A DNA stretch of 64,000 nucleotides from Olsenella sp. An290. GTDB taxonomy: Bacteria > Actinomycetota > Coriobacteriia > Coriobacteriales > Atopobiaceae. Position numbers and translations under genes: made by a program. Where the stretch lies: contig NZ_NFIU01000002.1 of assembly GCF_002159535.1 (NCBI RefSeq), positions 186,001-250,000 on the forward strand. The letters are read 5' to 3'. Below, in pieces: positions 28,669 through 43,232 of this stretch (positions within the stretch are counted from its first letter, which is position 1; each line of letters opens with the position of its first letter). The notes under the pieces are model-generated. The model ran no database searches. It was not told the origin of the DNA and saw only the letters and a program-made list of their open reading frames with translations.

Positions 28669-28756
28669 CACATCAAATCTGGCTACGTGATTTTGGCAGT
28701 TTCTGCCCTTTAAAGCCCCCTCAAACAGCCAAAATGACGTAGCCAGATTTGATGTG
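28669..28756. repeat. 29-bp inverted repeat in the hisA-hisF spacer
   Basis: Arms 28669-28697 and 28728-28756 pair with one mismatch around a 30-base loop that contains the palindrome CTTTAAAG. The left arm begins CACATCAAATCTGGCTACGT. It is AT-rich against a GC-rich surround and has no ORF, so it is a REP or MITE-like candidate. The rest of 28344-28859 holds the reductase relic and three GAGAAGGAC-type motifs. Confidence 0.85.
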
Positions 28757-41427: not shown

Positions 41428-42678
41428 GTGACGCGCCCGGCGAGCAGGGCCCAGCGCCCGAGACGGGCCTCGCGCTCGCGCGAGCGCGAGGGGGCGCTCG
41501 CGGCCGCGGCCGCCGTGCGCGTGCCCGCGAGCTGCGACGTCGTCGTGGCGGGCGGCGGCGCCGCGGGGCTCGTCGCGGCCATCGCGGCGGCCGAGGCGGG
41601 CGCCTCGGTCACGGTCCTCGAGCGGGACGCGACCTGCGGCCGGCCCATCCTCGCCACCGGCAACGGCCGCTGCAACTTCATGAACGAGGCGCTCCTGGGG
41701 CCCTCCCCCGTCTGGGATCGCTACAACGACCCCGCGTTCGTGGCCGCCGTCTGCGGCGAGCGCGTGGGCGAGGACGTGCTCGCCTTCTTCGAGGGCTGCG
41801 GACTCGCCTGGGCGTCCGAGGAGGGGCGGCTCTACCCGCTCTCGCGCCAGGCGTCCTCCGTGCGCGAGGTCCTTCTCGCCCGCGCGGGACGGGCCGGCGC
41901 GAGGCTGGCCCCGGCCCGGGAGGTGCTCGGCGCGCGGCGCGGCAAGGATGGTTGGCGCGTCTCCTTTCGAGGCGAGGCGGCGCCCGACGGGGGCGAGGTC
42001 GAGGCGGCGGCCGTCGTCCTTGCGGCGGGCGGCGGGTCCGCGCTCGGGCGGGAGGCGGGCCTTGCCGTGACTCCCGCCGAGCCGGTGCTCTGCTCGCTCG
42101 CGTGCGCGCCGGAAGACGGAGGCGTCTCGCTGGCCGGGCTCGACGGGCGCCGCGCCCGCGCCGTCGCACGCCTCCTGCGCGACGGCGCCGAGGTGGCGCG
42201 CGAGTCCGGCGAGGTGCTCTTCCGGGCCTACGGGCTCTCGGGGATCGTGGTCTTTGACCTCTCGCGCGTGGCGCGGGCGGGCGACGTCATCGCCCTCGAC
42301 CTGCTCGACGGCCTGGGGGCGCCCCGGGCCGAGGCTCTCGTGCGCGCGGCGGGCGGGACGTTTGGGCTCATCGACCCGCTCATTGCCGCAGCCCTGGGGG
42401 CAAATCCTCTTGACACAGCCCGTGACCTGCGCTTCATTGTGTCGGGACCGGCCGAGCCCAAGCGCGCGCAGGTGACGCGCGGCGGTCTTGCCACGAGCCA
42501 GTTCCTCCCCGCGACGCTCGAGGCGCGCGAGCGGCCGGGGCTCTTCGCCTGCGGCGAGGCGCTCGACGTCGACGCGGCCTGCGGCGGCTACAACCTGGCC
42601 TGGGCATGGAAGAGCGGCCTCGTCGCCGGGCGGGCGGCGGCGGAGCGCGCCGGCTCGCGCCCGGAGGGGCCGCGCTGA
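41428..42678 (+). CDS. HI0933/YhiN-family flavoprotein
   Basis: 416 residues. N-terminal FAD fold DVVVAGGGAAGLVAAIAAAEAG (about 38-59), GRPILATGNGRCNFMN (family signature, 77-92), and C-terminal ACGGYNLAWAWKSGLVAG. Members are putative NAD(P)H/FAD oxidoreductases, some related to bile-acid reductase BaiN; the substrate is unknown. GTG at 41428 is directly after the mrp stop; the first ~35 residues are Arg/Ala-rich and a start near residue 31 is possible. Confidence 0.83.
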   Translation: MTRPASRAQRPRRASRSREREGALAAAAAVRVPASCDVVVAGGGAAGLVAAIAAAEAGASVTVLERDATCGRPILATGNGRCNFMNEALLGPSPVWDRYNDPAFVAAVCGERVGEDVLAFFEGCGLAWASEEGRLYPLSRQASSVREVLLARAGRAGARLAPAREVLGARRGKDGWRVSFRGEAAPDGGEVEAAAVVLAAGGGSALGREAGLAVTPAEPVLCSLACAPEDGGVSLAGLDGRRARAVARLLRDGAEVARESGEVLFRAYGLSGIVVFDLSRVARAGDVIALDLLDGLGAPRAEALVRAAGGTFGLIDPLIAAALGANPLDTARDLRFIVSGPAEPKRAQVTRGGLATSQFLPATLEARERPGLFACGEALDVDAACGGYNLAWAWKSGLVAGRAAAERAGSRPEGPR

Positions 42679-42729
42679 CACGGCGGCCGATGGCCCCGCT
42701 CACGGCCGTGCCCCTCCCGACTGGGCGGC

Positions 42730-42882
42730 GCGCCCGGGGCCTTACGGGCGGGGTGCGCTCCGACGTCGGGATTGGGTGGCTCGCCCGGGCCCTTCCGGGC
42801 GGGGTGCGCTCCGGCGCCGGGATTGGGTGGCTCGCCCGGGCCCTTCCGGGCGGGGTGCGCTCCAGCGCCGGGATTGGGTGGC
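42730..42882. repeat. Three 51-bp tandem repeats
   Basis: Units 42730-42780, 42781-42831 and 42832-42882; units 2 and 3 differ at one base, unit 1 at about five. Each ends CGGGATTGGGTGGC. 51 is a multiple of three so all frames repeat as 17-residue units, but no ORF has a ribosome site. The last unit runs straight into the 21-bp inverted repeat. Confidence 0.9.
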
Positions 42883-42926
42883 ATCCCTGATATAAAACAT
42901 GGTCAATATCAGGGATGCCACCCAAT
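42873..42926. repeat. Perfect 21-bp inverted repeat
   Basis: ATTGGGTGGCATCCCTGATAT (42873-42893) and its exact complement (42906-42926) with a 12-base AT-rich loop. The outer part is the end of the 51-bp repeat unit. It may be a terminator for the upstream plus-strand gene or a REP-like element. Confidence 0.9.
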
Positions 42927-43232
42927 AGCGTGCAAATTGCGGTCATTTCATATCGTAAGACTTTAAAGTCTCTCCCCGAACCCTCCCGACCTTCTCGCTA
43001 GCATCAAACATGCCACCCAAAATCGCCAAAGGAGCACCCGGTCCGCGGCAATGAGGCGCGCGCCAAGGGGCGCCCGGTCCACGGCAATGAGGCGCGCGCC
43101 CACGCCGGGGGGGCGTTCCGGTGCGGGTCGGGCGGCGTCTCGCATCCCCCGGGGGCGCGCGGCCGTGCCACCGCCGCCCCGGAGGGGCGCACATGTGTGA
43201 CAATGTCACAGCAGGCAAGAGAAAGGACTCCC
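42927..43232. other. Rest of the repeat-rich spacer
   Basis: No supported gene. Contains the 14-base palindrome AGACTTTAAAGTCT (42958-42971), a second copy of GCCACCCAA (43012-43020), two 36-base tandem units (43034-43069, 43070-43105) around CCGGTCC and GGCAATGAGGCGCGCGCC, and the ribosome site for the gene at 43233. Confidence 0.6.

Follow-up and report, generated by a model that had tools for sequence, protein, structure and literature searches.

The excerpted account of the E. coli gal system (PMC4693257) describes looping by GalR and HU, with HU at the apex of the loop; repression peaks at spacings of 103, 113, 123 and 133 bp, whereas those of 108, 118 and 128 bp relieve it. The REPINs of P. 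fluorescens SBW25, as presented in excerpts of two reports (PMC3116915, PMC8049555), are inverted doublets at preferred distances of 71 and 110 bp and are held to be mobile yet stably inherited. While the usual accounts of bacterial intergenic repeats invoke mobility or RNA hairpins, in the element described here it is the spacing rule itself that is conserved.

The repeat cluster of the window

The window, by which we mean the whole 64,000-nucleotide stretch of DNA analysed here, contains a spacer between two plus-strand genes that is filled by repeats (Table 1). All of the parts that the initial annotation had named at this locus, namely the 51-bp array, the 21-bp inverted repeat, the 14-bp palindrome and the 36-bp units, were found again; the right-hand site and the genome-wide dispersal of the arm are additional to them. 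When the spacer was dinucleotide-shuffled 500 times, perfect inverted repeats with arms no more than 60 nt apart reached at most 14 bp, as against the 21 bp observed. The array region is also detected as three 62-nt copies, the second and third of which are 89% and 87% identical to the first.

Table 1. Features of the window's spacer, the family D repeat and pairs of similar elements elsewhere (window positions, except in rows naming a locus)
Feature	Position	Strand	Description
Upstream gene	41428-42678	+	TIGR00275-family FAD enzyme
51-bp tandem array	42722-42882		3.2 copies, 93% matches
Left site L, family A	42869-42893	-	Core centre 42879; PWM score 35.5; left arm of the perfect 21-bp inverted repeat
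Perfect 21-bp inverted repeat	42873-42893 / 42906-42926		12 nt between arms
Middle site M, family A	42906-42930	+	Core centre 42920; PWM score 36.1; right arm of the perfect 21-bp inverted repeat, 41 bp from L
M-R interior	42931-43002		Contains the 14-bp palindrome
Perfect 14-bp palindrome AGACTTTAAAGTCT	42958-42971		Within the M-R interior
Right site R, family A	43003-43025	+	Core centre 43015; PWM score 34.2; 95 bp from M, 136 bp from L (13 helical turns)
Two 36-bp units	43029-43100		92% alike; directly outside R; secondary flank repeat
Downstream ORF	start 43197 or 43233	+	Sub-cut-off matches to FAD-binding enzymes only
Family D inverted repeat, arm CAAATCTGGCTACG	28669-28756		hisA-hisF spacer (presumed from gene names); CTTTAAAG in loop; no family A site
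Similar-element pair	L085 3740-5515		Direct orientation
Similar-element pair	L079 3920-5850		Inverted orientation
Similar-element pair	L073 2556-4110		Inverted orientation
Similar-element pair	L028 5860-7680		Inverted orientation

The outer half of the left site, GATTGGGTGGC, is present in every 51-bp unit and starts at 42770, 42821 and 42872, the last of these bearing out the earlier observation that the final unit runs into the left arm. No 51-bp-type array was seen in the corresponding spacer sequences of two other genomes, G017 and G019 (none beside loci L066 and L095). As the units carry the outer half-arm and that spacer has no array in these genomes, a fair reading of the array is a local duplication with one end inside the left site. 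The 51-bp step is not a whole number of helical turns, and the copied half-sites are without the inner half. Short tandem arrays are found at the edges of 30/67 family A copies, as compared with 139/1504 random positions (which were not limited to spacers), and at the edges of 1/42 copies of a second family, B; the 51-bp and 36-bp arrays are best read as secondary duplications at element edges.

The proposal that the array grew from the palindrome's flank is consistent with the half-arm carried by its units and with the array-free spacers of G017 and G019, but the palindrome is not the self-contained unit that the proposal took it to be. It consists of two of the three sites of a dispersed element: the left and middle sites form a 41-bp (four-turn) inverted site pair of the family A architecture described below, and the window copy has the standard three-site form (42879-, 42920+, 43015+). 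Local replication slippage alone in a GC-rich spacer, which is how the array was first viewed, would account for the 51-bp and 36-bp units in so far as they resemble recent tandem duplications, and it holds for the arrays alone. As a full account, to which we give next to no credence, it is refuted, as it leaves unexplained the 26 dispersed sites of the arm (control 0) and the copies at the same place in two other species.

The core CTTTAAAG occurs twice in the 64-kb window (28708 and 42961), a count reached in 1/100 shuffles, and had been thought to be common to this locus and to the inverted repeat at 28669-28756, in what we take from the gene names to be the hisA/hisF spacer. This connection did not hold up, as the latter repeat belongs to another dispersed family (D) with its own arms and the G017 copy of the window's element reads CTTTAATT at the corresponding place; judged from these sequences, CTTTAAAG appears to be no conserved part of the family A element. 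With up to 1 mismatch allowed, sites of the family D arm number 8 in the window's genome, G000, where the 2 exact ones both fall inside the window; G017 has 4, G022 has 2, and G009 and G043 have 1 apiece. The reversed control gives 1 match in G013 and another in G043, and family D pairs are 60 or 64 bp apart.

Dispersal, inverted architecture and 10.5-bp quantisation of family A

The window's repeat cluster represents a single copy of a DNA element that is dispersed and lies mostly between genes. In the 2.15-Mb genome of the window the arm consensus YATCAARNATGCCACCCAATCG (20-bp form) has 26 sites at up to 3 mismatches, and the 11-mer at the heart of the arm, ATGCCACCCAA, occurs 22 times, the reversed control giving 0 in both cases. 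Exact ATGCCACCCAA counts are 31 in G017 and 45 in G019 (reversed control 0 in each) and only 0-4 in the other 22 of 24 further genus genomes (four of the 24 give 1 in the reversed control, the remainder 0), i.e. copy number is patchy. The single matches in G010, G014 and G022 do not represent elements, there being no PWM site at any of them, and no PWM site was found at the 8 order-level ATGCCACCCAA loci scanned (of 10 fetched). In a gene-pair tree the three genomes G000, G017 and G019 do not form one well-supported clade (the family A counts leave out G040-G045). When 84,980 species, each represented by one genome, were scanned for the site pattern, 39 stretches were returned, 36 of them from records named Olsenella, Thermophilibacter or Atopobiaceae, including O. 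profusa An794 (L147) with one strong site. Among the other three, L145 from a Collinsella MAG has three sites; L116 and L132, which are non-Coriobacterial, are partnerless lone sites that we treated as chance and rejected as elements. The site pattern was not found in viral contigs, nor the window's spacer in plasmids, and one G019 element had no match in phages or plasmids. The best-ranked literature matches did not include a description of the family A element.

A PWM built from 114 exact sites and applied to the fetched loci yielded 174 sites in 69 clusters, and with an unchanged cut-off it yielded 0 when the sequence was reversed. Typically two inverted sites face outward, frequently with a third site that makes a 41/42-bp inverted pair with one end. 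Conservation beyond each site is weaker and extends outward to about +69, and a GTTTTGTGGC-like box is present in the outer flank of 17/174 sites (at most 2 mismatches, at one offset). Within clusters of no more than three sites, the spacings fall at 32, 41-43, 73, 83-84, 95-96, 105, 114-116, 125-127, 135-138, 168-169 and 177 bp, with one each at 132 and 133 bp off this ladder. The 97 inverted pairs have a best period of 10.5 bp (R 0.92), and when each distinct spacing is taken once 0/5000 random sets, scanned on a coarser period grid, are equally periodic. Mean GC is 0.64 inside and 0.74 outside the elements, and TTCTCGCC / GGCGAGAA lies inside 36/66 A modules vs 20/319 flank windows; in B modules there is no such enrichment (4/67 vs 21/232). 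At the end of contig 7 of G000 (L026, 1-500) a seven-site cluster includes four same-strand copies 41/42 bp apart, and a stretch of about 110 bp there appears again 310 bp beyond, which may mean that the assembly broke at the array.

The element occupies the same place in related species, mostly with whole-turn changes in length. The window's spacer holds a -++ element with spacings of 41 and 95 bp in G017 and a -+ element with a spacing of 116 bp in G019. The whole interior between the outer sites is partly alike in the window and G017 copies (0.75 identity vs 0.68 shuffled), and for the G019 copy the values are 0.70 vs 0.70 shuffled. Across 18 same-spacer pairs the span difference is 0 in 5, ±1 bp in 6, whole turns in 6 (10, 21, 20, 20, 22 and 10 bp, only five of them independent, as both 20-bp changes involve a single shared genome) and -4 bp in 1, so that 17/18 differ by 0, ±1 bp or whole turns. 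Interior identity in these pairs is at about the shuffled level in many and clearly alike (0.80-0.95) in a few; the 3/18 that are more than 90% alike inside carry little information. As the sites were located by sequence, their conservation in such pairs is partly by construction and the spacing alone is free.

The 18 pairs were drawn from 27 same-spacer or flank-similar pairs, several of the 18 being based on similarity of one flank only, and for L028 and L029, with three sites each, the inner -/+ pair was chosen. Two of the 9 omitted pairs involve the seven-site array of L026; the others repeat loci or are paralogous cross-matches or a weak match, and their spans are 126/126 in five, 127/126 in one and 116/126 in one. 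Other species' versions of the window's spacer hold different inverted repeats, and two of the motifs in these turned out to be dispersed families in their own right (B and C, below). In the version of G005 (L162) several CTTAAG-type sites at steps of about 41-42 bp, seen by eye, may represent a further family, and G018 has a shorter version of this spacer.

The elements have inverted sites on either side of about 100 bp of DNA with a somewhat higher AT content, and these could also be recombination sites that flip the interior between them. If this were the case both orientations might be expected; the inverted middle site lies on the same side in 6/6 same-spacer pairs across species in which both copies have one (counted from the pair listing). 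This constancy argues against invertible switches, which we regard as very improbable.

Whole-turn spacing that is kept while the interior drifts is characteristic of protein complexes on double-stranded DNA, and for this reason we favour, with modest confidence, a protein-bridged DNA micro-loop of gal-repressosome-like geometry, formed by a putative protein, as the reading of this dispersed intergenic element. A putative sequence-specific protein would bind the sites and bridge them into a loop of about 8-13 turns, and a shared bending factor or a second protein may act at a central core in the copies that have one; the binding, bridging and bending are the parts of this reading that we infer. 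The likeliest outcome would be a local effect on DNA topology or transcription at gene ends, and the elements are most often found in tandem and convergent spacers. The same-spacer pair that differs by 4 bp and the spacings of 132 and 133 bp count against the loop.

Genomic context and spread of the elements

Gene context was assessed with rough ORF picks by codon GC, counting elements with at least two sites and an ORF on both sides. Tandem spacers account for 37 of the family A elements, convergent spacers for 21 and divergent spacers for 5 (6 overlap a called ORF); the corresponding numbers for family B are 23, 11 and 7 (3 overlap a called ORF). Among A-locus spacers of at least 250 bp, those with an element comprise 18 convergent and 4 divergent ones and those lacking an element 10 of each kind; among the corresponding B-locus spacers the numbers are 7 and 6 with an element and 4 and 6 without; a convergent bias is therefore seen for A only.

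The predominance of convergent and tandem over divergent spacers for A is also what a transcribed hairpin would give, if the arms pair in RNA to form a terminator or an mRNA-stabilising element at gene ends, and the perfect 21-bp stem in the window fits this as well. Additionally, arms are more alike within an element than expected by chance: outer L/R arm identity is 0.76 vs 0.737 for shuffled partners (n = 64, 0/2000 shuffles), near L/M arm identity is 0.731 vs 0.687 (n = 33, 0/2000 shuffles), and for three-site elements 4/2000 shuffles reach the observed L/R match. This likeness counts against the micro-loop, as a hairpin or copying would produce it too. However, the match within elements is small and in two-site elements is reached in 141/2000 shuffles (n = 25), a single-stranded loop gives no reason for 10.5-bp quantisation, and the arms correspond to no Rfam family: at gathering scores, tRNAs and one guanidine-III riboswitch are the sole matches in the window and 24 element or core loci. 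A transcribed hairpin is thus an improbable explanation. The riboswitch (RF01763, 37.3 bits vs a gathering score of 36) lies at 1025-1085 of L073. A T-box was also considered for the window, where GGGTGGNA in our view resembles the T-box motif, and was rejected as Rfam gave no T-box match there.

The elements do spread, as recent copies exist: L081 and L083 are similar at unlinked places (87% over 285 bp). Such copies count against the micro-loop in so far as they fit a mobile element too. In that case the family would be a miniature element, MITE- or REPIN-like, with the sites as transposase-binding ends, the phasing serving synapsis of short ends and the copies arising by transposition; this is the main rival to the loop and, in our estimate, an unlikely but serious one. 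In three of four alignments homology between similar copies stops, by eye, near the outer GTTTTGTGGCA-like box, similar pairs lie about 1.1-2.6 kb apart, copy number is patchy within the genus, and the sites are long and non-palindromic like transposon ends. On the other hand, copies that share a spacer in three species retain their sites and phase as the interior drifts, which is unexpected of dead insertions, and by eye there is no clear target duplication at the L081/L083 flanks. The searches of viral contigs, phages and plasmids given above likewise speak against mobility, the spacer having been searched in plasmids only. Similar element pairs about 1.1-1.5 kb apart flank short gene stretches, as if these had been copied locally (pairs of this kind are listed in Table 1).

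Neither a transposase nor a candidate for the bridging protein emerged from the neighbourhoods. Of 20 neighbouring proteins scanned, 16 belong to ordinary Pfam families, none of them a transposase, and 4 have no Pfam match, so this survey is not exhaustive; that no candidate binding protein is among the 20 counts against the loop just as the lack of a transposase counts against a mobile element. Loci present in single copy were considered as pointers to a dedicated regulator gene, an idea that was dropped when their neighbours (FeoB, a histidine kinase, glutamate dehydrogenase, a radical-SAM/HydF-domain protein, FtsW/RodA, phosphoketolase, a beta-lactamase-family protein and similar) gave no such pointer. 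The Y1 transposase domain PF01797 has one to six matches in 28/31 genus-sample genomes and 0 in G019, the genome richest in family A. At 13 Y1_Tnp loci, part of all matches, there is no A site above the cut-off of 14 (highest scores 6.5 and 7.1) and no exact B or C word. A RAYT/REP partnership was rejected on these grounds, which also weigh against a mobile element.

Other arm families and the central core

Families B and C behave alike in sharing the design of family A with different arms. The family B arm TGAACCCAAACC has 103 copies in G023, 81 in G024, 22 in G004 and 0 in G000 and G019, with a reversed control of 1 in total over all 31 genomes. Of 44 family B clusters in G023, 23 show the complete arrangement -[about 80-111]+[18]-[about 80-111]+ (L205, which overlaps L204, is excluded from the counts). 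The -+ spacings of B have a best period of 10.7-10.8 bp, which 0/5000 random sets match on distinct values. G006 carries 28 copies of the family C arm GAGTGTACGAAA and G012 carries 12, with a control of 0 in each of the 31 genomes; the exact matches to this arm form 21 pairs at 86, 96-98, 106-108 and 126 bp, two of them supplied by one G006 triplet. Their best period is 10.1 bp, with R 0.87 at 10.5 bp; 0/5000 random sets are equally periodic, or 6/5000 on distinct values. The interiors of six family C copies appear mutually unrelated.

Turnover of A and B motifs in place was rejected as a general rule, as few B elements lie in the G023 spacers that correspond to 61 tested A elements. G023 has B elements at the places of A in the window's own spacer, at L076, L077 and L097 and, doubtfully, at L062; the window's own spacer is the route by which family B was chosen, and the overlap was judged without a formal expectation. 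As A and B are mostly in different spacers, the arms did not generally change in place.

A central core motif is present in a minority of genus copies and at loci across the order. The core ACCTGCGGTTTT was found in 31/31 genus-sample genomes (control 1 in five and 0 in the others) and in 64/80 order-sample genomes (a sample that includes six of the genus). Most genomes have few copies (2 in G000, 3 in G017 and 6 in G019), and some have many, such as G103 with 26, G027 with 20 and G088 with 17 (control 0). Papers matching the ACCTGCGGTTTT string were, by their descriptions, unrelated. A CCTGCGG-type core lies inside 12/66 A modules vs 17/319 flank windows and inside 27/67 B modules vs 11/232 flank windows. 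In the main orientation its distance to the right site in A is 54-56, 65-66 or 75-76 bp, with one at 20 bp; in B it is 47-49 bp, with one at 37 bp, to the right site and 32-33, 42-44, 52-54 or 64 bp to the left site. Cores in the opposite orientation are fewer in A and more scattered, and some cores are off the ladder. These, together with the absence of the core from the window copy and from 54/66 A modules, count against the micro-loop.

At 13/30 core loci a perfect 11-bp inverted pair surrounds the core, compared with 0/88 mispaired controls, and the other 17 have none; 8 of these 13 come from outside the genus, with arms that differ. G103 has one arm family repeated at fixed distances (span 122-123 bp, once 143 bp), with an outer GTTTCGTGGCA box that resembles the outer box of family A. 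G027, which belongs to another family, has nested sites near -101, -51, +58 and +108 around the core. In both genomes the mispaired controls also yield perfect matches, as expected if loci share arms. The G027 sites are 50 bp apart, which is not a whole number of 10.5-bp turns, and the lengths there are simply fixed; this counts against the loop, and the ladder is therefore established for the genus only. With these reservations we tentatively propose, as something short of probable, that the Coriobacteria may have an order-wide class of micro-loops with the shared core ACCTGCGGTTTT and with lineage-specific inverted sites at set distances, which a fast-changing DNA-binding protein would bind and which selection would maintain at gene ends, where they would act as local boundaries of topology or transcription.

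If a protein does lie behind the spacing, the elements would provide natural comparative evidence for selection on DNA-loop geometry at at least 10 places per genome, with arm sequences that vary between species, and a single element, as about 165 bp of defined DNA, would serve as a handle on a putative DNA-binding protein of gut bacteria.

Comparison with known systems

The likeness to REPINs and BIMEs, as far as the excerpts of PMC3116915 and PMC8049555 describe them, lies in dispersed intergenic inverted pairs at preferred distances, a less conserved spacer, lineage-specific sequences and stable inheritance, and family A does consist of extragenic inverted doublets at preferred distances. 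In contrast to REPINs and BIMEs, its sites have no internal palindrome and no GTAG/CGTC tag (judged by eye from the PWM consensus YATCAARNATGCCACCCAATCG) and their spacing is a ladder of helical turns; neither a palindromic tagged unit nor a cognate RAYT (Y1 transposase) with flanking copies was found. The bridged loop and mobility may both hold, as in REPINs. With MITEs the elements share a short, non-coding, multi-copy body with terminal inverted repeats and some recent copies, but interiors are often unrelated between copies, same-spacer copies keep their phase across species, and the neighbourhoods examined (20 proteins, 4 without a Pfam match) contained no parent transposon. As for invertons, only one of the two orientations was seen in the 6 same-spacer pairs across species.

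The gal repressosome and Lac-type loops differ from the elements described here in that the latter are dispersed in many intergenic copies, usually not between divergent genes, and have long, non-palindromic and often three sites with a repressor that is only putative. As far as the excerpted gal account (PMC4693257) allows the comparison, the central motif would suit a bending protein, here in a minority of copies that does not include the window's. The sites themselves lie integral helical turns apart, as in loops of the gal and lac type, with two sites 10-13 whole turns from each other on one face of the helix.
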